This document shows positions 46,504 to 61,913 of a DNA stretch of 64,000 bases, piece by piece. Below the pieces are notes generated by a model that saw only the letters and a list, made by a program, of their open reading frames with translations, was not told where the DNA came from and did no database searches. A program made the translations under genes and the position numbers. The stretch covers positions 1,811,203 to 1,875,202 of the forward strand of contig NZ_JAGINW010000001.1 in NCBI RefSeq assembly GCF_017876405.1, in the 5' to 3' direction. The DNA is from Kibdelosporangium banguiense. GTDB taxonomy: Bacteria; Actinomycetota; Actinomycetes; Mycobacteriales; Pseudonocardiaceae. How positions within the stretch are numbered: position 1 is the stretch's first letter; the number at the start of each line of letters is the position of its first letter.

Positions 46504-46523
46504 GTCCCCCTCTTGAGTGCTCG

Positions 46524-47317: not shown

Positions 47318-47358
47318 GCTGTTGCTCGTTCGAAGGCGCGCACTGGAGAGGCAGCGAG

Positions 47359-47544: not shown

Positions 47545-47993
47545 CCTGGTTCGGCAGCCCCGCCTACATTCTCACGGCCGTCACCGTGTTAGCGGCCGTG
47601 AGCGTCACCGACTGGTGGCTTCTGCGGACTGGCCGGATCGAACGTCGACACCACCGTGTGCCGCACCGCAAGCTCCGGGACGCCGCTCGGAGAAGGCTCG
47701 CGACCGGGTCCCCCGCACCTCGCACTGCGCCGGTCGCGGGCCCTGACTCCCGGGCTGTCTCGCCTCCTCCCCCCTCGGCGAGAACGGCTCGGGATCCACA
47801 GGGGGAACAGCCCGCGACCGCACCCCCAGCACACTCCGCGGTCGCGGGCCCCAAGCCGGCGGCTGGTGTCGTGCCCCGACGCGACACCAGCCGCCGTCCA
47901 CCCCGGACACTCATCATGATCAACTGGTGGCGTGATGGCCTGGCGGCGATGCGGCTGCGGATGCGCCACCTGGCACCACTGCCTGGACGGTGA
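47541..47993 (+). CDS. Hypothetical membrane-anchored Pro/Arg-rich protein
   Basis: 150 residues from GTG 47541 (GTGA overlap). One N-terminal membrane helix (AYILTAVTVLAAVSVTDWW), then a basic Pro/Ala/Arg-rich tail. A topology-like match to small Spd-type spread proteins of integrative elements is possible, but no sequence signature supports it. The 3' end overlaps the next gene by about 60 bp, so it may be shorter. Confidence 0.5.
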   Translation: MTWFGSPAYILTAVTVLAAVSVTDWWLLRTGRIERRHHRVPHRKLRDAARRRLATGSPAPRTAPVAGPDSRAVSPPPPSARTARDPQGEQPATAPPAHSAVAGPKPAAGVVPRRDTSRRPPRTLIMINWWRDGLAAMRLRMRHLAPLPGR

Positions 47994-48261
47994 CACTGTT
48001 GCCTGCTCCCACCGTGCGCTCGGGCTGAGCGTCGAGACCGTCCTCTGGGTCGTCAATCCCGCCGAGCGATGCAGAACCTGCCTCCTGGCTGCCGACAAGG
48101 TGGCAACCGCCCGCGTCCGCAGCCAGCTCGCCGCCAGCCAGGCCACCATGGTCGCCTGGATGGACGCGGGGATACGGGCGCTCGAGCAGGGCATCACCGA
48201 TGAGCGGCAGATCGGGGACATGCTTTACGAGGGTGGCGCGGTCTGGGCAGGCGAGTCGTGA
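47935..48261 (+). CDS. Cys-rich hypothetical protein
   Basis: 108 residues from ATG 47935. RCGCGCATWHHCLDGDTVACSH and CRTC give a Cys/His set able to bind zinc; the C-terminal half is helical. No family recognised. Its stop overlaps the next start (GTGA). Confidence 0.55.
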   Translation: MAWRRCGCGCATWHHCLDGDTVACSHRALGLSVETVLWVVNPAERCRTCLLAADKVATARVRSQLAASQATMVAWMDAGIRALEQGITDERQIGDMLYEGGAVWAGES

Positions 48262-48515
48262 GCGCGCGGGCCCGCCACGCACGGCGCCTGTCGTCGATCC
48301 TGTGCAGGGAAAGCGGTGTGTTCGTCCGAGTCCAGTACTTCCAGCAGGTGCGCCGGTACGGCGTGCACTGGACCGGCGGCCCCCACGCGACCGAGATGTA
48401 CGCGTGGGCCATCCAGCACGCCGACGAGATCCACGCGCTGGACGTGCACAGCCTCGATTGGCTCCGGACCGAACCCGCCCAGCGCACCGTCACCGGCGAG
48501 GTCGAGGAGCCATGA
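48258..48515 (+). CDS. Hypothetical protein
   Basis: 85 residues from GTG 48258. Basic N-terminus, then FVRVQYFQQVRRYGVHWTGG and IHALDVHSLDWLRTE. Small soluble protein of unknown role in the overlapped + operon. Confidence 0.55.
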   Translation: MSARARHARRLSSILCRESGVFVRVQYFQQVRRYGVHWTGGPHATEMYAWAIQHADEIHALDVHSLDWLRTEPAQRTVTGEVEEP

Positions 48516-48757
48516 ACGGCCAGGCGCTGCAAACCGTGTTGATGGGGATCGCCGACAAGCTGACCCAGCCGGACACAGTCACGCAGGCGGCGAGGACGTT
48601 CACAGCACTGTTGAGCGGGATGGACGACCCGCGAGCGTCGGAAGTGGCCGGGATGCTCAGTGAGCACGCGAAGCAGGCGGACGCGTTCGAAGCCAGCGCG
48701 GAGCGGTCACGAGCCGCGGTGCAGCAGCTGGCAGCGTCCCTGCTGGATGCCAGGTGA
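48512..48757 (+). CDS. Hypothetical helical protein
   Basis: 81 residues from ATG 48512 (overlaps the previous stop). All-helical, acidic: LMGIADKLTQPDTVTQAART, MLSEHAKQADAFEASAERS. Its stop overlaps GTG 48754 of the integrase remnant. Confidence 0.55.
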   Translation: MNGQALQTVLMGIADKLTQPDTVTQAARTFTALLSGMDDPRASEVAGMLSEHAKQADAFEASAERSRAAVQQLAASLLDAR

Positions 48758-49131
48758 CCAGCGTCGTGGCATGGCTCCATGAGTTCGAGCGCTTGTACAT
48801 CGCGGCTGGCCTGCCGCCGATCCGGCTCCACGACCTCCGGCACATCGCGGCGACGCTGATGCTGGCCGCAGGGATCGACATGAAGATCGTGCAGGAAACG
48901 TTGGGGCACAGCGCCCTGGCAGTCACATCCGACACGTACACCACCGTGCTGCCGCAGATCGCCCGTGCCGCGGCCGAGGCGGTCGTCGCGATCGTGCCCC
49001 GTCGGGCACCCACGAAAACAGCCGGGCACCCTACGGGCACCCAAGAGATCAACTCGACCGGAGGAGTGAGCGCTGACTCCCCCGTGAAAAACGAAACACC
49101 GCAGGTAGACCGGGGTCTCTCTGCGGTGTGA
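48754..49131 (+). pseudogene. Tyrosine integrase, C-terminal remnant (element A)
   Basis: 125 residues keep only the last third of a tyrosine recombinase: IRLHDLRHIAATLMLAAGID (H-x-x-R), VQETLGHSA and the nucleophile region SDTYTTVLPQ. The N-terminal DNA-binding domains and first catalytic Arg are absent. It ends 2 bp from att copy 2, the usual place of an integrase gene. GTG 48754 overlaps the upstream stop, so a peptide may still be made. Confidence 0.85.
49096..49129 (+). terminator. Hairpin at the end of the integrase remnant
   Basis: ACACCGCAG (49096-49104) pairs with CTGCGGTGT (49121-49129), and inside it AGACC pairs with GGTCT. The two stems are separated by 2-nt mismatches. No T-run. 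It overlaps the last codons, just before att copy 2, and may stop transcription into element B. Confidence 0.6.
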
Positions 49132-49132
49132 C

Positions 49133-49178
49133 GTGGAGCCGCCTAAGGGAATCGAACCCTTGACCTACGCATTACGAG
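49133..49178. repeat. att copy 2 (boundary between elements A and B)
   Basis: 46 bp identical to 61836-61881, including the 3' end of the tRNA. It shares 43 bp with copy 1. Its position between two integrase-bearing segments shows tandem integration at one tRNA site. Confidence 0.93.
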
Positions 49179-49261: not shown

Positions 49262-49770
49262 GGACGGGGCCGGACTGAGACGGAAACTGAGACGGACCCG
49301 TCGCTTGGGGCCTCGCGCGCGATGTGTCGGCGAATGAGTCCACACCGTGGCCCCCGAACCAGCCCGATACCGGGGGCTCAGGGAGGCGCGGCAACGGCAC
49401 TCATCCGGCTCATTCCGCTCATCCGTGCAGGTCAACGTCGCCTCATCCGTGAATGAGGCAACTCATTCTGGACCGACTGACCTCATCCCGCGCGGGGAGC
49501 GCCGCACGGCCGACGAGGCGTGCTGGTCTAGCAGTCCCGGGCTGGGTAGCAGTCGGCAACCGCTAGACCTAGCACCCCGCGCTAGCGGCTGGCACGCGCG
49601 TTGACCAGCGCGCTAGCGACTAGCGGACGAAACTACGGCTGGACCATCGGGGGCGAACCTCGGGCACCTACCCTCGCCCCTCGTGTCTACCTTGCCCGCT
49701 TGGGTAGCCCTCTCCCTCTACTCAGGTAGACCCCTGTGACATGGGTCGTGACCAGCGCGGTAGTGGGTAG
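49262..49770. repeat. Short-word repeat blocks, left end of element B
   Basis: The 540-bp gap 49179-49721 has no gene. Blocks follow each other: CTGAGACGG twice (about 49268-49290); CTCATCC/CTCATTC words with the dyad GAATGAG-gcaa-CTCATTC-like (49400-49495); CTAG and GCTAGC words (49525-49625); CTACC/GGTAGA words (49668-49770), the last reaching into the 3' end of the SH3 gene. CTGAGACGG/GACGGGAACTGAGACG recurs near the right end (about 61770). Confidence 0.7.
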
Positions 49771-50288
49771 ACGCTCGTCAAGGGGCCCAGCTCGACAGAG
49801 CCATTTCCCGGCCCGGGCGCAGGATGGCCCGCTGACGGTCGCTGAGCGCCCGCGCCGGTGCGTCCATCGCTCGCAGCGCCAGTAGGCGTATTTTTGCCCT
49901 CGTACCAGTCGACGCATTTGTGCCCGACGTAGCCGGTCTGTCCGGAGTTGGTTATCACCTTAACCCACCAATTACCAGGCTTCTCTCCCCAAACGCAATA
50001 ATAGGTGCCGCTAACTGTTTCGATGCAGGCAGCCGACAATGATTCGCCGGAACTGAGGTAAGCAATGGTGTTGCTGTCAGCGTTTGGTTGGTCCTTGATT
50101 GCAGTCCGGCTCAGGCCCGCCCGTGTTTTGACGTAGCAGCGCTTGGCGATGCCAGGGGTCGAGTTGGTAATGCCGTCTGGAGTGGGTTCCTCATTCTGCG
50201 CGGACGCCGCTCCGGCTGGTACTTGAACTCCCAGGACCAGTGCGATTCCAGCAGCGATCGCCAGCAAAATAAAGCGGATTCGATTCAT
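49722..50288 (-). CDS. Exported SH3-like domain protein
   Basis: 188 residues. Signal peptide FILLAIAAGIALVLGVQVPA, cut near AGA-ASA. The body has TRAGLSRTAIKDQPNADSNT, SSGESLSAACIET and GNWWVKVITNSGQTGYVGHK, an SH3_3-like fold with paired Cys. The last 50 residues are Pro/Gly/Ser-rich and run into repeat block DNA, so the natural C-terminus may have been replaced. Cargo of element B; the target (cell wall or protein) is unknown. Confidence 0.75.
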   Translation of the reverse strand: MNRIRFILLAIAAGIALVLGVQVPAGAASAQNEEPTPDGITNSTPGIAKRCYVKTRAGLSRTAIKDQPNADSNTIAYLSSGESLSAACIETVSGTYYCVWGEKPGNWWVKVITNSGQTGYVGHKCVDWYEGKNTPTGAASDGRTGAGAQRPSAGHPAPGPGNGSVELGPLTSVYPLPRWSRPMSQGST

Positions 50289-50764
50289 CGCTTGTTTCCT
50301 TCAAATGCACCTTTGGGTAGCTGGATATTTTGTTCGTTCCTTACTTCGAACATGTACTATCGTATAATCGCGAAGTACTTGCTGGGAGGGGCCATACTTG
50401 ACCACAAGACGTCAACGGCGCGTATTTCACGTTGCCCGCCAGATAGGGAGCCCAATGGCGAGACCACGCCAATGTCGACAATGAGTCAGACGTGCCGCTG
50501 ACGAACCTTCAGCGGCGCATCTCAGGGCGTGATCGCTGGCCCCCTCATTTGTCCCCCTGCCGGGTCGTGATCTTGCCGAGGACGGCCGCTAACGAGGGTC
50601 GGCGAGCAAATCCACACCAGGCGAGTCCAGATAGGCGCTCTACGACCATCTCAGGGCGTGCCCGCGCGCACTGTCTTTACGCGGGGGACGTGGCGCCCTG
50701 CATAAAGATCGACAAAACCTGGTAACATTACGTGTTCCGGTGCGCCGATGCAGAAGGGTTAGCC
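50289..50764. other. AT-richer gap with a TATAAT site and partial repeat
   Basis: No convincing gene in 476 bp. A perfect TATAAT is at 50363-50368 on +, without a good -35 box. CATCTCAGGGCGTG at 50518-50531 is a third, partial copy of the direct repeat described for 50637-51039. Base composition is clearly lower in GC than the host. Confidence 0.5.
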
Positions 50765-51039
50765 GTGAAGTTATACATGTTTCGCAAGTTTCAGTATAGA
50801 TGGCTACCTGCATCTTACTCGAAATGGCACATTCAACGCTTCGATGTTGTTCCACCTAGATACATTGCTCTCTGTGGCGCAATGACCGGACCGCTTCAAG
50901 TTGAAGCACGCTCAGCAGACAGTCCGGAACAATTAGAAATAATGTATAAGCGTGTCCACCCCTGGCAATGTATGCGATGCGTTGCAAAGCTGCAAGATTA
51001 GACAGGCGGGTGCTCTACGACCATCTTAGGGCGTGCCCC
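50637..51039 (+). repeat. Direct repeats flanking a small cargo gene
   Basis: GCTCTACGACCATCT(C/T)AGG and eight or nine more matching bases occur at 50637-50664 and 51012-51039, 26 of 28 identical and in the same orientation. They enclose the 78-residue gene at 50765 like a cassette. No inverted ends or transposase are visible. Confidence 0.75.
50765..51001 (+). CDS. Small Cys-containing cargo protein
   Basis: 78 residues from GTG 50765, with GAAGGG 7 nt upstream. Aromatic and basic: MFRKFQYRWLPASYSKWHIQ, then IALCG and WQCMRCVAK, a possible CxxC zinc knuckle. Codon use is AT-richer than the host. No family recognised beyond small element-borne zinc-knuckle-like proteins. Confidence 0.55.
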   Translation: MKLYMFRKFQYRWLPASYSKWHIQRFDVVPPRYIALCGAMTGPLQVEARSADSPEQLEIMYKRVHPWQCMRCVAKLQD

Positions 51040-51072
51040 GCACTCTCTCTGTTCTAGCCGCTTTTTCGTCCA

Positions 51073-51306
51073 TCACTCCACCGAGGGGACCTGCCGAATC
51101 CGGCGCAGATCATTTAGGTATTCGCGCGCCTCCGGTTCACTCTCATATTGACTATGGAGAACCTTCTCCAGATCTTGCGAAACCATGGCTAGTGACGGCA
51201 ATGACTTACGGTCGCCGTTCAACGCCCGACTGCCAAAAGCAATGACCTCATCCAAGTCACCTTCTCGGGCTGCAGCAACATTGGGGTCAACTTCTTGTGG
51301 ATAGAA
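51073..51306 (-). pseudogene. Remnant of a regulator C-terminus
   Basis: An open frame reads PQEVDPNVAAAREGDLDEVI, then FGSRALNGDRKSLPSLAMVS and EAREYLNDLRRIRQV. No ATG/GTG start exists in frame (only TTG 51255). The RKxLPSL...L...Y..EP.AREYL pattern resembles the end of XRE/TPR-type regulators. Probably a 3' fragment lying downstream of the Nudix gene. Confidence 0.45.
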
Positions 51307-51311
51307 TTAGA

Positions 51312-51776
51312 TCAGGCGCCGAGGACCACCTCACCATGTTCAAGGTAGAGGGTCATGCCGTTCTGATGCGCCTCGTATGCGCGCGTAATTCTTCGAACTA
51401 GCCGCGGGATGACGTAGTCGGCGAGTTGTTCAAAGCTCACCCATTCCCACAAATCTAGCTCAATGCCATCGAGTCGAATCGCATGTTCGTCGGCACCGAT
51501 ATTGCCGCAGCTGAATACATAAAGGACCTTGTCACCCTCTTCGTTAGGCGCCCAGTCACTCACGAGTAAACGCACAGGCTTGCGATCGACTCCTATCTCT
51601 TCTAGCACTTCCCGTTGACATGCCGTCGCTGGAGATTCGCCGCGCTCGACGTATCCACCCGGGAGGTCCCAACGATTGCCGTATGTCTTTCGCACGAGTA
51701 GGACACGATCACCGTCAACGAACAACGCCCCGGCGGCCATCCGAGGCGTTGCGAAGGTCTCTGTTGGGTCACCCAC
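51312..51776 (-). CDS. Nudix hydrolase
   Basis: 154 residues. The Nudix box GGYVERGESPATACQREVLE then EIGV fits GX5EX7REUXEEXGU. It hydrolyses a nucleoside diphosphate linked to another group; the substrate is unknown. It follows the XRE regulator by 4 bp on the same strand, a pairing repeated in many actinomycete integrative elements. Confidence 0.93.
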   Translation of the reverse strand: MGDPTETFATPRMAAGALFVDGDRVLLVRKTYGNRWDLPGGYVERGESPATACQREVLEEIGVDRKPVRLLVSDWAPNEEGDKVLYVFSCGNIGADEHAIRLDGIELDLWEWVSFEQLADYVIPRLVRRITRAYEAHQNGMTLYLEHGEVVLGA

Positions 51777-51780
51777 GGTC

Positions 51781-53010
51781 CTACCCTACGACGTGCATGC
51801 GGCGGGCAAGCCGGTCTAGCTCGACACTGGGCTTACCGTGGACATTCCGAACCCAGCCGAGAACAAGCTGCCTACTGAGATAGTGGTGTCTGACCTGCTC
51901 AGGGGCAAGCTGTTCCGCGTCCAGCACGGTTGCAACAGCCGCTTCGCTTCGGCCGGCCGAGTTGTACGCTCTGGCCAAGTCGAGTAGGTGCCTGACCTGC
52001 CGCTCAGTCGGCAAGGCCGACGTGTCGAGATCTGGCCCGACATCAAGGGCAACTTGTACGTCACCAAGTTCCATCGAGGTGTTCACTCGATGAATAGCGA
52101 CGTTCGTAGGCCCGAAGGCCGTCCACAGATGGTTTCCATCTCGCCCAAGCCGGTTTGCAGCGTCCTGCGCTTCCTGCAAATAGCTGCGCGTCGTCCCCCG
52201 ATCCTCAGACCGAGATGCAGCCATTGAACCAGCAAGGAATAGCATTCCATAAACGGACTGCAAATTGCCATCGTCATCCACCAGATGCGGCTGCAGGTAA
52301 GCTGCACCCGCTTCGACAAGCTGCATTGCGGGTTGAAACCGGCCTGTCGCCTGCAGAGCAAAAGCAACAGATCGAAAGAGTGAACCCACTATTGCATGGT
52401 TGCCAGTCGCTTGCGCAGCTGCGAGACCGCGTTCACCAGCCATCCAAGCCAGGTCCGACTCTCCCAGCTTCGTGAGAATCGATGCCGCTGCTTGGTAGCT
52501 CATTGCCAGTAGCTCGTTGGCGCGCAGCTGGTCGTCTCCGTCGTACTGCCGTGCAGCGAGAATCGCGTCTGCGAGAAGTAACGGCGCCCGGCCGGCGGCG
52601 AACCCGAACCGCGATGCCTGGTAAGCGTCAAAGACTGCCCGCAACTCCCGCTCAAGCTCCGTCAGCGACGGCGGCTCGGCATCCGAACTCGGCACACTCA
52701 GAAGCGGCGTCAACTGCCTGTAGTCCATCAATGCAGCTCGCAGCGCTGGGACGGTCGAGGTCCCACTGTCCGGCGTCCAGTCCAAGAGCGTGGGTTCGCC
52801 GATCAAGTCTCCGAGCGACACATCCAACGCGTCTGCAAGCCGTCGGATCACAGACAGCCGGTCAAGCTCGATGCGGTTGTTCTCCGCTTTGCCCAGCCAG
52901 TCAGGGGTTCGGCCAACAAGTCCGGACAAGGCTTCCTGCGACATCCCGCGACGGCGTCGGTACCAAGCCACACGTTCGCCGATGGTGAGGTTCTCTGTCA
53001 TCCCGCGCAT
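51781..53010 (-). CDS. XRE-family regulator with TPR-like sensor region
   Basis: 409 residues from ATG 53010 (ATG 53001 possible). Helix-turn-helix ERVAWYRRRRGMSQEALSGL then VGRTPDWLGKAENNRIELDR. The remaining 330 residues are helical repeats of TPR type (ARQYDGDDQLRANELLAMSY, LARAYNSAGRSEAAVATVLD). Likely controls itself and the coupled Nudix gene. Confidence 0.88.
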   Translation of the reverse strand: MRGMTENLTIGERVAWYRRRRGMSQEALSGLVGRTPDWLGKAENNRIELDRLSVIRRLADALDVSLGDLIGEPTLLDWTPDSGTSTVPALRAALMDYRQLTPLLSVPSSDAEPPSLTELERELRAVFDAYQASRFGFAAGRAPLLLADAILAARQYDGDDQLRANELLAMSYQAAASILTKLGESDLAWMAGERGLAAAQATGNHAIVGSLFRSVAFALQATGRFQPAMQLVEAGAAYLQPHLVDDDGNLQSVYGMLFLAGSMAASRSEDRGTTRSYLQEAQDAANRLGRDGNHLWTAFGPTNVAIHRVNTSMELGDVQVALDVGPDLDTSALPTERQVRHLLDLARAYNSAGRSEAAVATVLDAEQLAPEQVRHHYLSRQLVLGWVRNVHGKPSVELDRLARRMHVVG

Positions 53011-53154
53011 GTGACCCACCCTCCCGCGCTCACCCGAAGGTACCCCGGAAAGTTTTTCCGGGTTGGTCGTACGTATCGGGTTGACGCTTGATCCATGAAC
53101 ACGAGCGACACCAGCGAACAGGGAAACCTGTTCGGACGGGCACGTACAACGGCC

Positions 53155-53535
53155 TCAACTCCCCGGCCCGGATGGCATCCGCCTTTCAAGCGCCACAAGC
53201 CGATCGTTGATCTCAGTCAGCAGCCGCAGCACTTCCCTGATGTCCGCAGCCTGAACGGTCACCGGTCGGTCTGGGGTGATCTCGATGTGACTCGGGTCCA
53301 GGTCCGGGTGAACAAACGAACCCGTGCCGTGTCGAGTGGTGATCAGCCCTTCTTGTTGCAGGGCACCAAAAGCGCGCTTCACCGTGCCAACAGCCACGCC
53401 CCACTCCTCTGCTGCCGCGTCATAGCTCGGAAGCTTGTCACCAGGTGCGTAGATGCCGTTCGCGATGGCAGCACGGAACCCCTCGGTTACCTGAACGTAC
53501 GGGGGACTTGCGTTGTTCGGATCGAGTTTGGCCAC
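53155..53535 (-). CDS. GntR-family repressor (KorSA-like)
   Basis: 126 residues. Winged helix: YVQVTEGFRAAIANGIYAPG, LPSYDAAAEEWGVAVGTVKR, LQQEGLITTRHGTGSFV. The short C-terminal tail is a helix. In pSAM2-type elements a GntR protein represses replication and excision genes; the divergent operon here begins 184 bp away with a dyad over its promoter. Confidence 0.9.
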   Translation of the reverse strand: MAKLDPNNASPPYVQVTEGFRAAIANGIYAPGDKLPSYDAAAEEWGVAVGTVKRAFGALQQEGLITTRHGTGSFVHPDLDPSHIEITPDRPVTVQAADIREVLRLLTEINDRLVALERRMPSGPGS

Positions 53536-53574
53536 AGCAGGGAGACTACGGCAGAGTCAGCCAGGGAGCCTACT

Positions 53575-53615
53575 CAGACAAGTCTGTTGACTCTCATGCC
53601 TGTCTCGGTTAACGT
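53575..53615 (+). promoter_or_regulatory. Promoter and operator of the element B operon
   Basis: TTGACT (53587-53592) and TAACGT (53610-53615) have 17-bp spacing. CAGAC-aa-GTCTG (53575-53586) is a perfect dyad abutting the -35 box, with a half-site CCTGTCT in the spacer. A good candidate for GntR control of the + operon. The position 40 bp from the gntR start suggests autoregulation too. Confidence 0.7.
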
Positions 53616-53719
53616 TGCTCGTGTCGCAGGGATCGCAGACCTCCCCCAGACAGTAGGAAGCCCCGGCGGTGCTGGAACACCGGCCGGGGCGCACATCGAA
53701 ACCTTTGGAGCGGTGAACG

Positions 53720-53977
53720 ATGCAGTTCGAGGATAACCGGGTGTACCGGGTCAAGGCAGTGGCTGAGGCCCTGGACGTTTCCCCGGCCACGATTTACCGG
53801 GCGATCGAGTCCGGTGCGCTGGACGCGTACAAGATCGGCACGGGCAAGGGCACGCTGCGTGTCCCGGGCCGGTCGGTGAACGTCTACCTGAACGACTGCG
53901 GTGAGGCTGCGTACCAGGCGTATGTGGTTAGCGGCCAGTCCCCGGCGGCGGACGACACCGTGGGGGAGGTGGCTTGA
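53720..53977 (+). CDS. Helix-turn-helix DNA-binding protein
   Basis: 85 residues, GGAGCGGTG upstream. YRVKAVAEALDVSPATIYRA and a wing with LRVPGRSVNVYLNDCGE: excisionase/MerR-type helix_turn_helix_17. First gene of the + operon; may activate or regulate it. The real excisionase is more likely the gene at 58349 beside the integrase. Confidence 0.8.
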   Translation: MQFEDNRVYRVKAVAEALDVSPATIYRAIESGALDAYKIGTGKGTLRVPGRSVNVYLNDCGEAAYQAYVVSGQSPAADDTVGEVA

Positions 53978-53978
53978 G

Positions 53979-54479
53979 ATGACCAGCACCGTTACCTCTT
54001 ATCCGTACGACGACCCCCGCCGCTACGAATCCACCACCGTCACCCGCTTGTGGGACTTCGCCCCGGCTCCGGCTGAACCTGCTCGGTTCGTGCCCGGTGA
54101 CATGGTCCCTGGCACTGTGGCGGGCCAGTCGACCCAGGTGATCGCGCAGCACCGGCAGAACAACATGAGCCCGGTTGTGCTGGACATGACGGTCACGATC
54201 CCGATGTCGCTGGACGACGTGACGGCCGTGCTGTGGATTCTGTGGGACGGCTGTTGTGGTCCGCTGGAGGAGTTCACGGGCGACCCGGCCTACATGCGTC
54301 GCATGGTGCTGGAGACCTACCTGGCCGAGGGTGGTCTGCGGATCGAGGAAACCCTGTGCCGCCTGGCCAATCTCACTCCAGGGGACCGGGACTACGCCGA
54401 CTGGCAGAAACTGCGCGCTGAGGTTGCCCGTGTCTACGGCACCGGCCCGGCCACCTGCATGGCGGAGGTGGCCCGATGA
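53979..54479 (+). CDS. Element B hypothetical protein, paralogue 1
   Basis: 166 residues from ATG 53979, 1 bp after the previous stop. The core LDMTVTIPMSLDDVTAVLWI, RRMVLETYLAEGG and DYADWQKLRAEVARV matches the next gene (TSIPLTETEMAAVLYGVLE, RRIVTETVVNAG, QAQWQDCRALVRACL). Helical protein, no known family. Confidence 0.7.
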   Translation: MTSTVTSYPYDDPRRYESTTVTRLWDFAPAPAEPARFVPGDMVPGTVAGQSTQVIAQHRQNNMSPVVLDMTVTIPMSLDDVTAVLWILWDGCCGPLEEFTGDPAYMRRMVLETYLAEGGLRIEETLCRLANLTPGDRDYADWQKLRAEVARVYGTGPATCMAEVAR

Positions 54480-54904
54480 CCACGATGATTCGGCGCCCGG
54501 CCGCCATGCCGGACGTGTTCGGCCCGTGCGCCGAGTTCGCCGGTCTGCCGGTCAGGGATCTGCGGGTGGAGTACGCAGGTTGTCAGGGCGACGACTTCGA
54601 CCCGGACAACCCGCCGGTGGTCGCGGTTAAGACGTCGATTCCGTTGACCGAGACCGAGATGGCCGCCGTGCTCTACGGCGTGCTGGAATGCTCGGAGATC
54701 CCGACGATCACCCCCGAGGAGACCCGGCGGATTGTCACCGAAACCGTGGTCAACGCCGGGTGCATGCAGATCGCGGAGTACGTCTACGAGGCGTACCGGT
54801 CGCTGCGGGACGGCACCGGCAACCAGGCGCAGTGGCAGGACTGCCGGGCCCTGGTTCGTGCCTGCTTGGCCAACGTTCGCGCGGCCTGCCAGGAGGTGTG
54901 GTGA
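54476..54904 (+). CDS. Element B hypothetical protein, paralogue 2
   Basis: 142 residues, coupled to its neighbours by ATGA overlaps on both sides. Same core as the preceding gene, so the pair arose by tandem duplication and diverged. Function unknown. Confidence 0.7.
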   Translation: MTTMIRRPAAMPDVFGPCAEFAGLPVRDLRVEYAGCQGDDFDPDNPPVVAVKTSIPLTETEMAAVLYGVLECSEIPTITPEETRRIVTETVVNAGCMQIAEYVYEAYRSLRDGTGNQAQWQDCRALVRACLANVRAACQEVW

Positions 54905-55215
54905 TGGCGTTGCGTCGCTTCGAACTTGTGCCGTTGGCTGCCGCGTTGTACGTCAGCCCGTACCGGCTGGACGACCTGGCGCAGCTGCGCAAGCAGTGCA
55001 CCGCGGACTTGCCCGGCGTTGCCGCTGAGCTGACGGTCTTGCTGGTCACCGTGTGCCGGGACGTCCCGGAGATGGCGACCACACGCAGTGTCGAGATCAC
55101 CGGCGACACGATCGATCAGGCCCGGATCGATGCCTGCATCACCACCGCCGCGACCGTGGTGGACGCGGTCAACCGGACCGAGGAAACCGCGAGCGGAACG
55201 GAGGCACGTCAGTGA
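54904..55215 (+). CDS. Element B hypothetical protein with LYVSP motif
   Basis: 103 residues from ATG 54904. FELVPLAAALYVSPYRLDDL resembles PLDLATVVAVLYVSPFTAVD in the gene at 55844, suggesting another related pair. The C-terminal half is helical and Thr/Ala-rich. No known family. Confidence 0.65.
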   Translation: MALRRFELVPLAAALYVSPYRLDDLAQLRKQCTADLPGVAAELTVLLVTVCRDVPEMATTRSVEITGDTIDQARIDACITTAATVVDAVNRTEETASGTEARQ

Positions 55216-55514
55216 GCCCGACCAGTGACTACCAGGTGGCGGTCACCGTGTTCACGACCGTGGCCGCCGGGGATGCCCGTGACCAGCGGGACGCCCAGAA
55301 CTGGGCCGTGATGGCGGTGGAACAGGCCTTGCACAGCGTGGCCACCGGCACCCGCCTGGGCGGTGTGGTCAGTGTGCCGTCGCGGTACCCGGCCCTGACC
55401 ACCCGCCAGGTCGACGTCCATGCCGTGATGGACACCGGCACCGCCGGGATCAATGGCTACCTGACCATCAGGCCGACCGGTCGGGCCTACCCGCAACCGG
55501 GCGAGCCCGGCTGA
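55212..55514 (+). CDS. Element B hypothetical protein
   Basis: 100 residues from GTG 55212 (GTGA overlap). YQVAVTVFTTVAAGDARDQR then VMAVEQALHSVATGTRLGG is a beta-helix-beta pattern, and DVHAVMDTGTAGINGYLTI ends it. No family recognised. Confidence 0.65.
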   Translation: MSPTSDYQVAVTVFTTVAAGDARDQRDAQNWAVMAVEQALHSVATGTRLGGVVSVPSRYPALTTRQVDVHAVMDTGTAGINGYLTIRPTGRAYPQPGEPG

Positions 55515-55557
55515 CTGGAACCGGCAGGCCTGTACGCCCATCGTGCAGGCGCAACCG

Positions 55558-55814
55558 GGTTCCTGAACCACCCCAGCAACCGGCCCGGCGGGTTCCGAAC
55601 CGCCGACGCCCCTTGGCGTTTATGAACGCGCCCGCCGGGCCGGTCTCCCACCCCCACGACCCCTGTTCACGAATCCGGGTTTCCGCTGTTCCGGGCAGGT
55701 GTACCCCCGTTCCCTCATCACGGTGTACCCCCGTGGAACATCGCTGGTCTGCGATGCCGCGAACCCGGGTTCACCCGGGCCGGGATGCCGTTTCGGCAAC
55801 GGGTTCGTGAACCC
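55558..55814. repeat. GGTTC/GAACC palindrome block
   Basis: The gene-free gap 55515-55843 holds four dyads on one word: GGTTC-ct-GAACC (55558-55569), GGTTC-c-GAACC (55591-55601), GAACCCGGGTTC (55761-55772) and GGGTTC-gt-GAACCC (55801-55814). GTGTACCCCCGT occurs twice (about 55699 and 55721). Possible operator array or replication-control region ahead of rep. Confidence 0.75.
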
Positions 55815-55843
55815 CGTCCTTCGCATCACGAGAGGCCCTTGCT

Positions 55844-56140
55844 GTGTCCTCCCTGAACCCCACTCTGAACCTGAACCCGCCCGGTGAACCACTGGACCTG
55901 GCAACGGTCGTTGCCGTGCTCTACGTCAGCCCGTTCACCGCCGTCGACTACCGGCAGATGCCCACAGCGGCACTGGCCGCCTACGTCACCACCGTGACCG
56001 CCGACCCACGATGCCGGGTGACCGAACTGGTGACCTTCCTGGCGGACACCCGCCGGGCCGGACTGTGCCGCGCCGAAGCCCGGCACCTGGCCGACGCCGA
56101 ACGTCACGCGCCGCGCGTGCTGTCCGCACTCACGCACTGA
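55844..56140 (+). CDS. Element B hypothetical protein with LYVSP motif, second copy
   Basis: 98 residues from GTG 55844. AVLYVSPFTAVDYRQM corresponds to the motif in the 54904 gene. The C-terminus is helical and His/Arg-rich. It precedes rep by 37 bp and may help replication control; no family evidence. Confidence 0.6.
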   Translation: MSSLNPTLNLNPPGEPLDLATVVAVLYVSPFTAVDYRQMPTAALAAYVTTVTADPRCRVTELVTFLADTRRAGLCRAEARHLADAERHAPRVLSALTH

Positions 56141-56177
56141 CGTTCCCGTTCCTGCCCTGTCACAAGGGAGACACATC

Positions 56178-57533
56178 GTGACTCACGCCAACCCCACCCC
56201 GCCCGGTGTCCGGCGGCTGTACCCGGTCCCGGTGCCAGAACCTGCGGACGGGGACACCCTGGCCACCCGCGCGGCCGACCAGGTGGCCCGTGCCCGGCTG
56301 TGGCTGCCGCCGGCCGATCCGGAGGTGTTCGACTGCTACCTCGGGCGGCTGGCCGTGCAGCTGGACCCGCACACCGAAGCGGACCCGGTCGGGGTGATGG
56401 TCTCGCTGCTGGCTGCCGCCGGGGTTCACCTCGGGCCGGGGCCACACCTGCAGCTCGGCTACGAACGACACCCGCTGTTGGTTTGGCCGCTGGTGATCGG
56501 CGAGACCGGGCGGGGAAAGAAGGGCACGGCGTACAACGCGGCGAAAGCTCTACTCTCTCAAGCTGACACCGAATTCGTGGCCAGCAATGTCCAGTCCGGA
56601 CTGTCCAGCGGCGAAGGTCTGGCCGCCGTGTTCGCCAGTGACCCTGACAGTGCTGGGAAGGGTCGGGCGCGGCTGCTACCCGAGGGCGACTGTCGCCTAC
56701 TCGCCTACGAGCCGGAATGGGCAGCGGTGATGGCCCGGATGAAACGCGAGGGCAACACCCTGTCCGCCACCCTGCGCGCCGCATGGGAAGGCGGCAATCT
56801 GTCCACATTGAACGTGGACGCCCGGGTAGCCCGACAGGCGCATGTGGGCATCCTCGCGCACATCACACCGAAGGAGTTCAAGGCCAAGGTGTCCGCGTCC
56901 GATATGGCCGGTGGCACCTACAACCGGTTCCTGCCGATCGCGGTTGCCCAGTCCAAATTCCTTTACATCCCAACGGTTCCCGACCCGGCCCTATTGATCG
57001 ACCTGGGCGCGTCCCTGGGAGACCGGCTACGGCAAGGCGCCCGGTTCGGCCCGGTCGGGCTAAGCCAGGCCGGAACCGCGCAGTGGAGCCACATCTACCT
57101 GGAATTCTCCGACCACCCCGAGGAGGACACCAGCCAAGTCGCCGAATTCATCTCCCGGGCAGCACCGCAATGCCTGCGGATCGCGGCCATCTACGCCGCG
57201 CTCGATCGCACAGACCAGATCAGCCCGGATCACCTGACCGCCGCAGCTGCGTTGGTGCGCTACGCCATCGCGTCCGCCGCCGCCGTGCTGCAACCCAGTG
57301 ACGTCCTGCGCAAGCTGGCCGCGTTCATCGCGCAAGCCGGGCCGGACGGGCGGACCCGCGAGGAAATCCGCTCAGGCTGCTTCCAGCGCAACATCACCGC
57401 CGACAAGGTGGCCGCGCTGCTGGACAAGCTCGTGACCGCCGGGCAGATCACTCGGGGCGAACGCCGGTCGCCCAGTGGCCGGGGCCGCCCGGCCGAAGTG
57501 TTCACCGCCAACCCGCCCGACCTACGCGGTTAA
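56178..57533 (+). CDS. DUF3987-type replication protein/helicase
   Basis: 451 residues from GTG 56178. A degenerate P-loop GETGRGKKGT (108-117) has Lys where Ser/Thr is usual, as is common in actinomycete members. LLAYEPEWAAVMARMKREGN, AHVGILAHITPKEFKAKVS and YNRFLPIAVAQSK are typical of DUF3987 helicases used as element replication proteins. A C-terminal winged-helix-like tail (ITADKVAALLDKLVTAGQIT) follows. Likely drives transient replication after excision. Confidence 0.8.
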   Translation: MTHANPTPPGVRRLYPVPVPEPADGDTLATRAADQVARARLWLPPADPEVFDCYLGRLAVQLDPHTEADPVGVMVSLLAAAGVHLGPGPHLQLGYERHPLLVWPLVIGETGRGKKGTAYNAAKALLSQADTEFVASNVQSGLSSGEGLAAVFASDPDSAGKGRARLLPEGDCRLLAYEPEWAAVMARMKREGNTLSATLRAAWEGGNLSTLNVDARVARQAHVGILAHITPKEFKAKVSASDMAGGTYNRFLPIAVAQSKFLYIPTVPDPALLIDLGASLGDRLRQGARFGPVGLSQAGTAQWSHIYLEFSDHPEEDTSQVAEFISRAAPQCLRIAAIYAALDRTDQISPDHLTAAAALVRYAIASAAAVLQPSDVLRKLAAFIAQAGPDGRTREEIRSGCFQRNITADKVAALLDKLVTAGQITRGERRSPSGRGRPAEVFTANPPDLRG

Positions 57534-58348
57534 CGCGGAAACGCGGCAAATGCCGTGACCAGGGCAAACGTGTCTGGACGGGCCCGAATTACCGCGTACC
57601 TACGCGGTAATTGCCGCCCCACCTCCAACAAAACCACAGGTCAGCGAGTTGTCGCGTTACCGCGTTTACCGCGTACCGAGAAACGAGGACACGACCACCG
57701 CCAGGCACGCGGCCACGCGCGACGCGGTAGCGACTGGCGCGCTACCGGTAGCGGCTGCGCTACCCGCCCCGCTACCCCGGTCACCAACCCTGATCAGGCC
57801 GTATATCCCCAGGTAGCGGGTAGCGGCACCACCTCCCATCCCGCAACTAGCCCTCTCAGGAGGTCATCCGCACTCACCGACCGCGCTACCGCCACCCAAC
57901 GAGCCGCTACCACTGGCCAGTCACCCGACACGCAGCCGGGCAACGAGATGCCCCCGCGCCGGGCCGGGGGAGGGCATCTCATCTCTCGCAGCTGCGGAAC
58001 AGCCAGGGTCTAGATCTAGACCCTTCTGCCTCTAGACCTAGAGCCCCCTCTAGACCTCAAAACCGGCAGTGACCAGGTCACTAGGGCCTAGCCCCCTCCG
58101 GTTACAGCCACACCAGTCCGGCTGTAACCGGAGGGGGGAGGCAGGGAGCCAGTCAGGGACTCGGCCGGCGGGCAGGGAGTTCTCCCTAACCCCTCCCTGG
58201 CCAGCCTCCCTGGGATGACCAGCGCAAACCACGCTCAGGGACCCAGGGAGGTAGCCGCCACAAGCCGCCGGAACCCCCCGGATTTCGGCACTTCCTGGAC
58301 CCCTTGCCGGGTCCCTCCCCAACCGACCAGCGGAAGGGCACACCACCC
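57534..58348. repeat. Repeat-rich gap between rep and xis, candidate origin
   Basis: 815 bp without a gene, made of successive word blocks: GCGGTAA/TTACCGCG (57528-57690), GGTAGC/GCTACC (57725-57915), TCTAGA with the 18-bp perfect palindrome GGGTCTAGATCTAGACCC (58006-58023) and more CTAGAC copies to 58058. The GGTTACAGCC stem (58092-58137) and CAGGGAG/CTCCCTG (58138-58250) come next. The iteron-like GCGGTAA block right after rep is the best origin candidate. Confidence 0.7.
58092..58137. repeat. Perfect 18-bp stem with 10-nt loop
   Basis: CCCCCTCCGGTTACAGCC (58092-58109) and its exact complement (58120-58137) flank ACACCAGTCC. It lacks a T-run and lies in the rep-xis gap, so it may be a replication-initiation cruciform or protein site rather than a simple terminator. 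Confidence 0.85.
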
Positions 58349-58585
58349 ATGCGACGCACCACCGCCATCACCCGGCCGACCACGGGGGACGTGACCACGC
58401 CGGAACCGATCCTCTTCGACGTTCCGTCCGCCGCCCGGCAACTGAGCATCAGCCGGACCACGCTCTACGAACTGCTCAAAGCCGGAGAAATCGAGTCCGT
58501 GAAAATCGGTGCGCTCCGGCGAATCTCACTGGCCGCACTTCACGCCTACACGGCACGGAAAGCCGCTGAATACCGGGCTGCATAG
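58349..58585 (+). CDS. xis: Excisionase
   Basis: 78 residues from ATG 58349 (GGAAGGG upstream). LFDVPSAARQLSISRTTLYE then LLKAGEIESVKIGALRRISL is the excisionase helix-turn-helix. It lies 43 bp before int, the standard xis-int order, and directs excision over integration. An in-frame upstream ATG at 58304 lacks support. Confidence 0.9.
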   Translation: MRRTTAITRPTTGDVTTPEPILFDVPSAARQLSISRTTLYELLKAGEIESVKIGALRRISLAALHAYTARKAAEYRAA

Positions 58586-58628
58586 CCTGTCGCTCCATCC
58601 GCCATAACCACACATCGGAGATCACCAC

Positions 58629-60083
58629 ATGGGACGCAAGAAACGCCCCGAGGGCACACGTGCGCCAAACGGCGCCTCATCCATCTACTTTGGAAAGGAT
58701 GGGAAATGGCACGGACGCGTCACTATGGGCGTTCGTGACAACGGCAAACCAGACCGACGCCATGTGGAACGGAAGACCGAAGCGGAGGTTATCCGGGCCG
58801 TCCGTGAGCTGGAAAAGCAGCGTGACTCCGGGAAGGTTCGCAAGGCAGGCAATGCGTGGACTGTCGAGAAGTGGCTTACGCATTGGCTGGACAACATCAT
58901 TGGGCCATCGGTACGCCCGAAGACGGCTCAGCGGTACCGGACTGACATTGTCGAGTACCTGATTCCAGGCCTAGGCGCTCACCGTCTCGACAAGTTGCAG
59001 CCTGAGCACATCGAAAAGTTGTACGCGAAGCTTCGGGCACGGAAGCCGCCGCTGGCATCGTCGAGCATTTACCACGTGCACGCGACGATACGAACTTCGC
59101 TGAACGAGGCAGTGAAGCGGCGGCACATCGTTGAGAACCCCGCCCTGATTGCGAAGCCACCACAACTCGTAGAGCCGGAAATCGAGCCGCTGACGGTAGA
59201 CGAGGCAAAGCGCATTCTCGCGTCAGCAGCTGCGCGCCGGAACGGCGTCCGCTTCGCTTTGGCTCTGGCTATGGGACTTCGCCAAGGTGAGGCCATCGGG
59301 TTGAAGTGGGACGATATCGCCATCGTGTGGCATCACGGTTGTGCAGAAGGAAAACCCTGCAACACCAGCCGTCCGATGGACTGCCCGGCCGGTTATGCAA
59401 CCGGCACGATCACAGTCCGCCGGGCATTGCAGCGCCACACATGGCGGCATGGCTGCGATAACCCCACCGAGTGCGGCGAACGCTTCCACCGCACGGCGTG
59501 CCCAGCGAAGTGCAAGCGCCATCGGGACCGCAAGAACTGCATTCGGGACGAGAAAGGGCATCCCCGGCCGTGTGCGGAGAACTGTGCTGAGCACGCCCGG
59601 CACTGCCCGGACCGCGTAGGCGGTGGCCTGGTTGAGGTTCCCACGAAATCCCGGGCCGGACGGCGGACCGTGGCGATTCCCGGCCGTCTCGCCGAATGGC
59701 TGTTCCAGCATCGGGAGGAGCAGGCCGAAGACCGGCGGCTGGCCGCGAACCTGTGGCAGGACGGCGGTTGGGTGTTCGCTCAGCCCACCGGCAAGCCGAT
59801 CGACCCACGAGCGGACTACCAGGAGTGGCGAGACCTGCTCGGCGCGGCGGACGTCCGGGCGGCACGCCTTCACGACGCGCGCCACACCACGGCAACCATG
59901 CTGCTGGTCCTCCGGACGCCCGTCCGGGCCGTCATGGAGTTGATGGGCTGGACAGCCGCGTCCATGGCAAGCCGGTACATGCACGTGCCTGACGAGATCA
60001 AAGAGGGCATCGCCGGGCAGATGGGCAACCTGCTCTGGTCACCTCCCAGCGACCAGCGGGAGCGGGGTGAGATCACGGGTTAG
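58629..60083 (+). CDS. int: Tyrosine site-specific integrase with Cys-rich insert
   Basis: 484 residues. N-terminal arm-binding region (SSIYFGKDGKWHGRVTMG), core-binding domain about 78-180, catalytic R218 (GLRQGE), K340 (TKSRAGRR), H415 and R418 (LHDARH), W441 and Tyr450 (MASRYMHV). Between strands, residues 236-328 form an insert with 11 Cys and many His, probably zinc-binding. It recombines att at the tRNA-Thr 3' half; all catalytic residues are present, so it may be active. Confidence 0.95.
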   Translation: MGRKKRPEGTRAPNGASSIYFGKDGKWHGRVTMGVRDNGKPDRRHVERKTEAEVIRAVRELEKQRDSGKVRKAGNAWTVEKWLTHWLDNIIGPSVRPKTAQRYRTDIVEYLIPGLGAHRLDKLQPEHIEKLYAKLRARKPPLASSSIYHVHATIRTSLNEAVKRRHIVENPALIAKPPQLVEPEIEPLTVDEAKRILASAAARRNGVRFALALAMGLRQGEAIGLKWDDIAIVWHHGCAEGKPCNTSRPMDCPAGYATGTITVRRALQRHTWRHGCDNPTECGERFHRTACPAKCKRHRDRKNCIRDEKGHPRPCAENCAEHARHCPDRVGGGLVEVPTKSRAGRRTVAIPGRLAEWLFQHREEQAEDRRLAANLWQDGGWVFAQPTGKPIDPRADYQEWRDLLGAADVRAARLHDARHTTATMLLVLRTPVRAVMELMGWTAASMASRYMHVPDEIKEGIAGQMGNLLWSPPSDQRERGEITG

Positions 60084-60459
60084 GTCCGAGCAACCGGGTT
60101 AGATTCCTAACTCGGCTTCCTAACTCGGCGGGTTAGGCGCCCGATCCGGGCCGTGAGCTGCACGAAGGTAGGGGGTTAGGCGGGTTAGGCCTCTGTGGAC
60201 GCCTCTCCAGAGACGGCCAAAACGGCAGTCTCGCAGGGATGCCGTCGGAACTACGTCCTTAGGCTCTGCGATCCCCGCTGGTGAGGAACAGGCACTGGTT
60301 GAGCATGTTGAGCGCCCGGAGTGTCGCCATACCGACGGGGACGTGACAGTCCTGGCAGCCGTAGACGGCTGCGGTTGCCAGGACCCCCAAGAACCCCCAA
60401 TATGTCCCAGCCTCCCTACGTGCTTGCTGACGCAAGCCAAGCTGCGGACAAGGCTGCCA
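60073..60459. repeat. GGGTTAG/CTAACTC block after int
   Basis: GGGTTAG appears at about 60077, 60096, 60131, 60174 and 60182, with CCTAACTCGG twice (60106 and 60119). Positions 60093-60250 are repeated near 61620-61764. The rest of the gap to 60459 contains no gene I can support. Confidence 0.75.
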
Positions 60460-60960
60460 CTAATCTCGAACTATCTCGTGACGCACGTCAAGGTCATCTG
60501 CTGTCACACCGAAACGTCGAAGGTAGGCTGCATGAGATGGCCCCTTGAAAGCATCTTTGCGACGCTCGAAGAATCGTTTGTTATGCCAACTCACACCAAA
60601 CCGAATCGTCATACGGTCACGGATTGTATTTTGCCATTCCCACAGCATCAATTGCTCCGGCCGCGCCCGGAGACGCTCATCGGACCAGCGTAGGAGCTTA
60701 ACACATTCTCGAAGATTGGCCTCGTCGTCGAAAACAATCTCGACCGTCGTACGGGCGTACGGCACGCGGGGAGGCCCTGGAAGTTCGCTTCCCTCAAGTA
60801 TCTGGGTCGGCCTAGTCTTGCCGCGTTCAAGTAGACGGTTGAGCTCTTCGTCGATTTCCAATTCCCCTAGCTCGCGCGCTACACCAAGAACATCAATGGG
60901 GTTTATCTCAACATCGTTGACATCGTCAACATCGTCGCGCATTTTAGCTACACCTCGCAA
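60460..60960 (-). CDS. Unknown cargo protein between integrase copies
   Basis: 166 residues from ATG 60960 (or 60942). Acidic N-terminus DDVDDVNDVEINPIDVLG, then TTVEIVFDDEANLRECVKLL and LMLWEWQNTIRDRMTIRFGV. No family recognised; no membrane segment. Codon use is less GC-biased than neighbours. It sits in about 1.1 kb of DNA absent from the duplicated integrase region and was likely acquired separately. Confidence 0.6.
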   Translation of the reverse strand: MRGVAKMRDDVDDVNDVEINPIDVLGVARELGELEIDEELNRLLERGKTRPTQILEGSELPGPPRVPYARTTVEIVFDDEANLRECVKLLRWSDERLRARPEQLMLWEWQNTIRDRMTIRFGVSWHNKRFFERRKDAFKGPSHAAYLRRFGVTADDLDVRHEIVRD

Positions 60961-61031
60961 TCAACCATCACGATGTTTACACGAGTGTTGCACCAGCTGC
61001 CGTCATTGTCTATGACTCGCCAAGGTTTCTC

Positions 61032-61096
61032 GCGAGTGGCCCCTCTCTGATTAGCGAGTGGCCCCTCCTGATCGGTGAGTGGCCCCTTCCTGATTA
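61032..61096 (+). repeat. Three tandem 21-22-bp repeats
   Basis: G(C/T)GAGTGGCCCC followed by TCTCTGATTA, TCCTGATCG and TTCCTGATTA occurs three times in a row (61032, 61054, 61075). They precede the broken integrase copy. Possibly leftover ends of an insertion sequence or recombination sites; nothing else of such an element remains. Confidence 0.75.
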
Positions 61097-61139
61097 GCGG
61101 TAGCCTCCTGTTGGAACGTCACCGAATTCCGTTTGGGAC

Positions 61140-61576
61140 CATTGTCGATCGCCTGGTCGAGGTTCCCACGAAGTCTCGCGCTGGTCGGCGAACAGTGGCC
61201 ATTCCCGGCCGTCTCGCCGAATGGCTGTTCCAGCACCGAGAGGAACAGGCCGAAGAGCGTCGGCAGGCTGCAAACCCGTGACACGACGACGGTTGGGTGT
61301 TCACTCAGCCCACCGGCAAGCCGATCGACCCGCGAGCGGACTACCAAGAATGGCGGGACTTGCTCAGCGCAGCTGAGGTCCGGGCGGCACAGTTGCACGA
61401 CGCGCGCCACACCACAGCCACCATGCTGCTGGTCCTCAGGACGCCTGTCCGGGGCCGTCATGGAGCTCATGGGCTGGACAACGGCATCTATGGCCAGCCG
61501 GTACATGCACGTGCCTGACGAGATCAAAGAGGGCATCGCGGGACAGCTGGGAAACCTGCTCTGGGTCGCCGCCTGA
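61140..61576 (+). pseudogene. Second integrase 3' end, broken copy
   Basis: From about 61151 it parallels codons 333 onward of the intact integrase (VEVPTKSRAGRRTVAIPGRL, DYQEWRDLL, LHDARHTTATM, MASRYMHV). The Trp at codon 377 is TGA (61279-61281), and an extra G in the run at 61451-61454 shifts the frame before ELMGWT. It lacks the N-terminal two thirds. A relic of another related element or of a partial duplication. Confidence 0.9.
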
Positions 61577-61589
61577 CGACCGGAGGGAT

Positions 61590-61764
61590 GCGGGTTAGAT
61601 CGCGGGTTAGGTGCACGCGGCCGGGTTAGATTCCTAACTCGGCGGGTTAGGCGCCCAATCCGGGCCGTGAGCTGGGCAAAGTTCGCGGGTTAGGCGGGTT
61701 AGGTCCCTGTGTGCCCCGTCCGCAGAGGGGCCGAAACAGCCGTCTCTCAGGGATGCTGTCAGAG
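61590..61764. repeat. Second GGGTTAG block
   Basis: GGGTTAG occurs at 61592, 61604, 61623, 61644, 61688 and 61697 with one CCTAACTCGG. About 145 bp align with 60093-60250, including GCC(C/A)ATCCGGGCCGTGAGCTG-like sequence. It lies after the broken integrase copy just as the first block follows the intact one. Confidence 0.75.
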
Positions 61765-61835: not shown

Positions 61836-61881
61836 GTGGAGCCGCCTAAGGGAATCGAACCCTTGACCTACGCATTACGAG
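61836..61881. repeat. att copy 3 (right end of element B, inside tRNA-Thr)
   Basis: Identical over 46 bp to 49133-49178; 61839-61884 is identical to att copy 1. It restores the tRNA 3' half after integration. Confidence 0.93.
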
Positions 61882-61913
61882 TGCGTCGCTCTAGCCGTCT
61901 GAGCTAAGGCGGC
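61837..61913 (-). tRNA. tRNA-Thr, anticodon CGT
   Basis: The reverse strand folds as acceptor GCCGCCT/AGGCGGC, D arm GCTC...GAGC, anticodon stem ACGCA/TGCGT with loop CTCGTAA, and T arm AAGGG-TTCGATT-CCCTT. Discriminator T and an encoded CCA follow. Anticodon CGT reads ACG (Thr). Its 3' half is the integration target of elements A and B. Confidence 0.97.

Follow-up and report, generated by a model that had tools for sequence, protein, structure and literature searches.

The window analysed here, a stretch of 64,000 nucleotides from the 12.8-Mb genome of Kibdelosporangium banguiense, contains an integrated element, element B (49.135-61.88 kb), which we interpret, with a probability of about 0.7, as a transfer hitchhiker that would offer a panel of docking sites resembling the plasmid transfer site clt to the TraB pumps of helper elements. 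Judged from its sequence, element B is of the actinomycete integrative and conjugative element (AICE) type. It is bounded by a 43-bp direct repeat, of which the right copy falls inside a tRNA-Thr, and it possesses integrase, xis-like and replication genes, but a gene for a transfer pump of the FtsK/SpoIIIE-like TraB type was not found in it. As in an integrative mobilizable element, its own integration genes go together with the lack of an own pump and with DNA that a helper may recognise, the latter by homology only, and no relaxase is involved. Its clt-like modules number seven and fall into five word classes (AGGGA, CTAG twice, GTTAG twice, GGTAGC and CTCATC; Table 1).

In tra-bearing elements such a module would lie directly behind traB, where its words would be read by the C-terminal winged helix of TraB, itself a hexameric pump for double-stranded DNA; this is reported for plasmids and presumably holds here likewise. 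With modules of several word classes at hand, whichever helper TraB is present could grip element B and would then move it as double-stranded DNA. Because different docking-like sites stand in a row on a pump-less element, element B may hitch a ride on the pumps of many elements. It also seems probable, if with somewhat less confidence, that tra-less actinobacterial elements of this kind are as a whole class broad-range hitchhikers of double-stranded-DNA conjugation, whose range of helpers would be set in their DNA by a series of clt-like modules, each for one word class of TraB; these classes would then amount to a readable code by which TraB winged helices and DNA correspond.

The starting observation is the abundance of short repeated words in the non-coding DNA of element B. 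Repeated and inverted 6-mer pairs were scored against dinucleotide shuffles in 200-bp sliding windows with a step of 50. Between 53.6 and 61.8 kb, 21 of 49 non-coding sliding windows exceeded z=4 (15 of 41 once 60.7-61.1 kb, with repeats not of the module type, was excluded), and 4 of 13 did so at the left end (49.2-49.85 kb). Such values were reached by none of the 81 coding sliding windows of element B, by 0.7% of the 136 non-coding ones in the part of the window below 49 kb and, in twenty 20-kb control stretches (400 kb) of the same genome, by 8 of the 722 placed in non-coding DNA and 1.1% of the 6231 placed in coding DNA. As the sliding windows overlap, these counts give an effect size rather than an exact p-value, and the division into coding and non-coding DNA follows a simple rule on third codon positions (GC3) that missed the atypical genes at 50-53.5 kb.

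The initial annotation had described word blocks of this kind, each recurring in both orientations, in every long gap of element B and not in the gaps of the core chromosome. The enrichment and its rarity in ordinary chromosomal gaps are confirmed by the counts above, and the words were found at the positions it gave. Some gaps lack a block, however, 49.85-50.35 kb for instance having z below 0, and the GGGTTAG blocks are mostly of one orientation. The GGGTTAG block annotated at 61.6 kb is present, but as a second copy of the block at 60.1 kb, behind a broken second integrase end, and GGTTACAGCC, listed as a recurring word, is actually a single 18-bp hairpin. A separate block scan called none between 49.5 and 55.7 kb; the same scan missed some of the blocks of the annotation. 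As read from their words, the blocks draw on a recurring vocabulary, arranged in modules where direct words accompany a dyad and the core TGACC[A/T]G.

Relatives of the element B rep gene were found at E<=1e-60 in 46 of the 390 family genomes searched, and 36 rep loci were compared, the window's own included and the fragmentary L005, L008 and L009 left out. Of 26 longer loci, nine carry an FtsK-like gene of 644-899 aa, directly behind which a block lies in seven cases; the 17 loci without that gene mostly carry several blocks. In a wider survey a profile of five tra proteins was run against the 390 genomes, two candidates were scored per genome, and the downstream DNA of 109 of the listed matches was analysed (L151, at a contig end, was left out). 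A block with a score of at least 4 is present at -60 to +440 of 69 of these 109 tra genes, compared with 3 of 101 in the control interval of +900 to +1400 (Fisher 1e-22). At a score of 2.5 a word accompanies 97 of the 109 genes, of the AGGGA/GGGGA type in 64 and the GTTAG type in 8, the rest being mostly AGTG-, GTGGAT-, GCACACC- and GTGTCA-types, and 12 have none.

The words and layouts of the AGGGA, GTTAG and CTAG blocks behind tra genes equal those in element B. Hidden Markov models (HMMs) of 64 AGGGA, 9 GTTAG and 3 CTAG tra-linked regions (the last from L217, L241 and L059) match the corresponding blocks of the window at E values of 1.5e-6 to 4e-19, while the best control match in 400 kb has E=4. 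For two further classes the models were derived from tra-less elements. The GGTAGC model, from three such elements, gave seven matches below 1e-5 in 381 genomes, its three sources and four new sites, and in each of the four new ones no more than about 45 bases separate the site from the end of a TraB-type gene; none of the 24 weaker matches held as loci has a TraB-type gene within 1.5 kb. The CTCATC model gave 15 matches at 1e-3, of which three are its sources. Five of the 12 new sites stand beside TraB-type genes, one of them in the K. banguiense genome itself, and seven do not (L290, L291, L292, L297, L298, L300 and L301). L290 and L300 adjoin other modules, and L301 lies about 6 kb upstream of the rep gene of Kibdelosporangium philippinense. 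L290 (positions 1-3083, genome G383) combines several AGGGA, GTTAG and ATGAG modules with a weak CTAG match within 3 kb.

A TraB HMM found nothing in the 17 tra-less loci, the whole of element B included; end-to-end coverage is established only for element B and for a second copy of it in the same genome (L046, att copies at 3623 and 17009). Its nine hits in nine tra-bearing loci arise by construction, because these loci were in the training set, L111 as a fragment of 23 aa. The family PF01580 has 12 matches in the K. banguiense genome, none within element B or the second copy. At least two modules belonging to the three HMM classes are found in 13 of the 17 tra-less and in none of the nine tra-bearing loci (Fisher 0.0005, some loci being close relatives). 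Three genes elsewhere in the genome, each with a module of a class represented in element B, are candidate helpers (Table 1), and no block lies behind one further FtsK-domain gene, L218. Like clt, the modules of element B consist of short words in tandem, some direct and some inverted, confined to about 200 bp; a position directly behind a tra or FtsK-like gene is found for the same classes elsewhere and not in element B. We therefore term them clt-like, and not clt, because no tra gene was found in the element. That TraB may bind them is suggested only indirectly, by a correspondence between the TraB C-terminus and word class in one of two identity bins. Among 31 proteins (duplicates, L110 and L111 with a stop inside, and proteins of no word class having been left out), pairs with 50-75% ATPase identity are 0.433 identical over the last 95 residues if they share a word class (53 pairs) and 0.279 if they do not (20 pairs), the pairs not being independent.

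Several observations weigh against the proposed hitchhiking. In the second bin, of 25-35% ATPase identity, the difference (0.272 within, 7 pairs; 0.232 between, 89 pairs) is not significant (p 0.085). Four of the 17 tra-less loci have none of the three module classes (L039, L047, L048 and L051), so that other classes, incomplete flanks or decay must be invoked, and L051 has a GCACACC block near an unassigned gene of 556 aa. At a score of 4, 40 of the 109 tra genes lack a block, and of 40 further FtsK-domain genes only five have one (CTAG twice, GTTAG, CGTAAC and CCCGTCAC); 31 of these 40 have no word even at 2.5. The naming of the tra proteins relies on similarity. Some have matches to FtsK_SpoIIIE or plasmid_TraB, most of them weak and none reaching the NCBI cut-off, and those of L054, L259 and L260 match no Pfam family. 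The CTCATC model gives no match in the second copy, and the GGTAGA and GAACC blocks as well as GGTTACAGCC are without a tra-linked match. The modules could serve otherwise, for instance by titrating rival TraB, and the proposal does not account for the TGACC core common to the modules.

The block directly behind rep is most likely the iteron origin of element B, as suggested by a conserved layout of iterons beside the gene and by a word matched to the presumptive DNA-binding domain of Rep. Its words belong to a distinct, ACGNNNTTA-like family. The typical layout consists of three direct words (spacing 9 and 8), the core TGACCAGSGCAAAC, a reversed and a forward word forming a central dyad, the core AAAACCGCAGGTCA and three reversed words (8 and 9). 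A looser rule, which asks for a word, core A, a reversed followed by a forward word, core B and a reversed word, holds in 29 of the 36 rep loci, L020 being included by virtue of a word of the neighbouring block, and fails in L004, L014, L015, L018, L023, L024 and L034. In 35 of 36 loci the best-word score is above the highest value for base-shuffled sequence (3.8), but in only 17 is it above that for the rep coding sequences (5.8; mean 3.4). Of 32 distances between core A and the reversed word that follows, 20 are 22-27 bp and nine 33-34 bp; of 29 between the forward word and core B, 18 are 25-28 bp and five 37-38 bp (L018 and L020 left out); the spacings thus form two clusters about one helical turn apart. 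The comparison of related elements proposed in the initial annotation gave, in this rep-linked module, the pattern it had anticipated, a layout kept while the words differ.

The word of this module changes together with the Rep protein. E..R at Rep positions 395/398 is present in all eight loci in which base 5 of the word is G and in none of the other 28; the motif was chosen after the data had been seen, and L021, with one TGA inside rep, was kept with an X at the stop. Mapped on a tree of the ATPase part, each trait shows six changes, of which well-supported branches force three. A pair test gave p 0.25 with three pairs, a number with which p 0.05 is out of reach. Rep C-termini are also more identical in pairs sharing a word in each of three bins of ATPase identity (p 0.02, 6e-6 and 0.003, the pairs not being independent). 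In the AlphaFold2 model of Rep (mean pLDDT 78) helices 375-385, 394-401 and 408-420 and strands 424-429 and 439-444 make up a C-terminal winged helix, and the top Foldseek matches are MCM and Orc chains (E 2e-5, TM only 0.43), which fits the prediction of DUF3987 as a helicase of mobile elements in the part of PMC5862659 available to us. From layout and co-variation we infer that the winged helix of this MCM/Orc-like Rep would bind the 8-9-bp word and that replication would start here. An assignment of Rep to RepAM of pMEA300 was rejected, since the RepAM family is given as DUF3631 in excerpts of PMC3218068, whereas the Rep of element B belongs to DUF3987.

Rep-linked and tra-linked modules of the main classes have a core in common, TGACC[A/T]G(C/G), in many cases with CAAAC after it. 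As a diagnostic sign the core alone, TGACCAGSRCRAAC, was discarded: it has 14 matches in the K. banguiense genome, compared with 0 when the pattern is reversed, but 12 of these 14 are without a surrounding word block. It was likewise discarded as a promoter with TTGACC as the -35 box, no steady -10 partner being visible by eye. RNA or single-strand structure seems less likely as the sole reason for the modules: the mirror halves could pair, but layouts vary by class, and the spacing of core and word changes in steps of about one helical turn, more in keeping with proteins that sit on duplex DNA.

Words in element B are better conserved than the DNA between them. The closest rep outside the K. 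banguiense genome is that of K. philippinense (about 80% identity), where GGTAGC, TCTAGA and the hairpin are retained and CGAACTTTG takes the place of the window's GCGGTAA. From GGTAGC to CTAG the two differ at 6 of 122 positions in words (0.049) and at 54 of 288 in spacers (0.188; p 2e-4). The second copy L046, whose rep is 97% identical, keeps the series of blocks from rep to xis and has an AGGGA, one GTTAG, a GGTAGC and two CTAG modules; here 18 of 295 positions differ in words and 55 of 477 in spacers (p 0.012). L046 also has a long array of direct repeats (ACCTGACCG, GGGCGAAC, CGAACC) inside a predicted gene at 4848-5292. Other words in the 26 longer loci include AGGGA, CTAG, GTTAG, GGTAGC, ATGAG, AACCCGC, GCCGTCCCA, CACTGGC, GTGGAT, AGTGA, GCACACC, CGTCAC and GGTTC, and many of these non-rep words occur in more than one element. 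Distant Rep relatives, all below 36% identity, were found in one record of PLSDB and six of a phage collection.

These conservation patterns bear on the alternatives. The modules might be leftovers, clt DNA kept unused after element B had derived from, or recombined with, tra-bearing elements. The 30-bp att copy at 41985, which points to an older tandem element, and the duplicated integrase end at 61.15-61.72 kb, which looks like a scar and is joined by a GTTAG module, would suit such a history. We nevertheless consider it rather unlikely: the words have diverged less than the spacers relative to K. philippinense, the second copy retains the modules listed for it above, though not CTCATC, and several classes recur jointly in tra-less loci of other genomes, in which the TraB HMM shows no remnant. 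Improbable, in our view, is a role as decoys that titrate or jam the TraB of competing elements instead of loading element B. The same anatomy and the many word copies per module would do for this as well, but the full layout including the core is conserved, and the presence of int, xis and rep suits a use in cis.

The initial annotation had considered stacked iterons or operators, which is borne out in part, by the one iteron-like origin behind rep and by the match of most other blocks to modules behind TraB genes. A reading by which all blocks would be replication origins or iterons for several Rep types could draw on the dyads, direct words and TGACC core common to all modules examined and on the co-variation of the rep-linked one with Rep. 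It appears slightly less plausible still than the decoys, as the non-rep classes sit behind tra genes and the rep-linked words form a separate family. To functionless DNA from slippage or a templated process, also raised in the initial annotation, we attach hardly any credence. It would account for the local repetition of words, but is contradicted by the recurrence of modules across genomes and genera, by the slower divergence of words than of spacers, by the joint change of origin word and Rep, and by core-to-word distances that lie one helical turn apart.

If element B is a hitchhiker on helper TraB pumps, it shares features with several known systems. In the sections of PMC3583192 and PMC4170104 at hand, the C-terminal winged helix of pSVH1 TraB reads repeated 8-bp words, and clt of pWTY27 extends from the last part of traA into the DNA that follows. 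The modules resemble these transfer sites in their short repeated words of 5-9 bp with inverted repeats, but differ in that they also occur in rows on tra-less elements, with several word classes each, and in that their words run in both orientations and a TGACC[A/T]G core is shared among them. The putative origin likewise recalls that of pWTY27, a Streptomyces theta plasmid whose iteron block has its 8-bp word in either orientation and whose RepA binds the intact inverted repeat (PMC3583192, in extract); unlike there, Rep is a DUF3987 protein and the layout is one of two mirror halves with two cores. Mimicry and multiplicity of transfer origins (oriTs) are known in relaxase-type mobilizable elements such as pEC156, according to passages of the review PMC11389934. 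Those elements, too, depend on helpers and carry transfer recognition DNA, sometimes more than one; they use relaxases and single-stranded DNA, however, whereas here the pump would be TraB moving double-stranded DNA.

Actinomycete integrative and conjugative elements and their defective forms share with element B the tRNA att site, tyrosine integrase, xis and rep (PMC3218068, PMC9513070, both in extract). The AICEs in the portion of PMC3218068 at hand have RepSA, RepAM or Prim-Pol instead of DUF3987, and the defective AICEs in the corresponding portion of PMC9513070 had traB, unlike element B. That same text treats as an open question whether co-resident actinobacterial elements use their own TraB or hijack another's, and states that for the model AICE pSAM2 a clt had not been described. 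Among the papers returned by searches of open-licence literature, none described a row of several clt-like modules on a tra-less element. The present data supply candidate clt modules for 69 of 109 TraB-type genes of one bacterial family and, for element B, several classes with three candidate helpers in the same genome. Which element can move which may now be predicted from sequence and put to experimental test. If true, mobilization would be widened from relaxase/oriT systems to an FtsK-like route for double-stranded DNA.

Table 1. Features of element B (coordinates of the window) and candidate helper loci elsewhere in the K. banguiense genome (contig C1).
Feature	Position	Strand	Basis
attL, copy of tRNA-Thr 3' region	49135..49177	n/a	identical 43-mer at 61838-61880
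CTCATC/ATGAG module, clt-like	49393..49476	-	model R2, built on three tra-less elements with element B among them; 5 of its 12 new sites beside tra genes
CTAG module 1, clt-like	49527..49627	+	tra-linked HMM E=1.9e-13; 5.6e-7 with K. banguiense sequence excluded from the HMM
GGTAGA block with TGACCAGCGC core	49660..49775	+	words only; no tra-linked counterpart found in tra surveys
NUDIX protein	51312..51776	-	Pfam PF00293
HTH_31/TPR regulator	51781..53019	-	Pfam
GntR-family regulator	53155..53535	-	Pfam PF00392
HTH_17 protein	53720..53977	+	Pfam PF12728
GGTTC/GAACC block	55500..55900	+	words; also in second copy L046; no tra gene matched
rep, DUF3987 protein with predicted C-terminal winged helix	56178..57533	+	PF13148, AlphaFold2 model, Foldseek
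rep-linked iteron module, likely oriV, word ACGCGGTWA	57520..57680	+	layout > A <> B < in 29/36 rep loci; word-Rep co-variation
GGTAGC module, clt-like	57724..57833	+	model R1 from tra-less elements; 4/4 new matches <1e-5 behind tra genes
CTAG (TCTAGA) module 2, clt-like	58009..58092	+	tra-linked HMM E=1.5e-6; 3.2e-5 without own genome
GGTTACAGCC hairpin, 18-bp perfect arms; could be a terminator	58092..58137	n/a	repeat search
AGGGA/CAGGGAG module, clt-like	58149..58322	+	HMM of 64 modules behind tra genes, E=4e-19
xis-like HTH_17	58349..58585	+	Pfam and PHROG excisionase
tyrosine integrase	58629..60083	+	PF00589, PF14659
GTTAG module 1, clt-like	60065..60191	-	tra-linked HMM E=4.4e-16
GTTAG module 2, clt-like, behind broken int end	61591..61719	-	tra-linked HMM E=1.8e-18
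attR within tRNA-Thr (61837-61913)	61838..61880	n/a	repeat of attL 43-mer
candidate helper L217	C1:1943205		CTAG module, match starts 7 bases behind stop, E 5.5e-8
candidate helper L135	C1:12100665		AGGGA module, E 4e-13
candidate helper L299	C1:2894865		CTCATC module, E 1.9e-13

Besides the genes of Table 1, element B has small open reading frames, and its GntR and NUDIX genes recall pSAM2. To its left, a third copy of the tRNA-Thr end, of 30 bp, lies at 41985 and a C-terminal integrase fragment at 48754-49131, which suggests that 41985-49135 is an older element A in tandem with element B. Within element B, the stretch of 61.15-61.72 kb resembles 59.6-60.19 kb and consists of the broken 3' end of a second integrase followed by its own GTTAG module, apparently a relic of the end of another element. 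Just before it, at 60.9-61.1 kb, ACATCGT and AGTGGCCCC occur in direct copies that are not of the module type.

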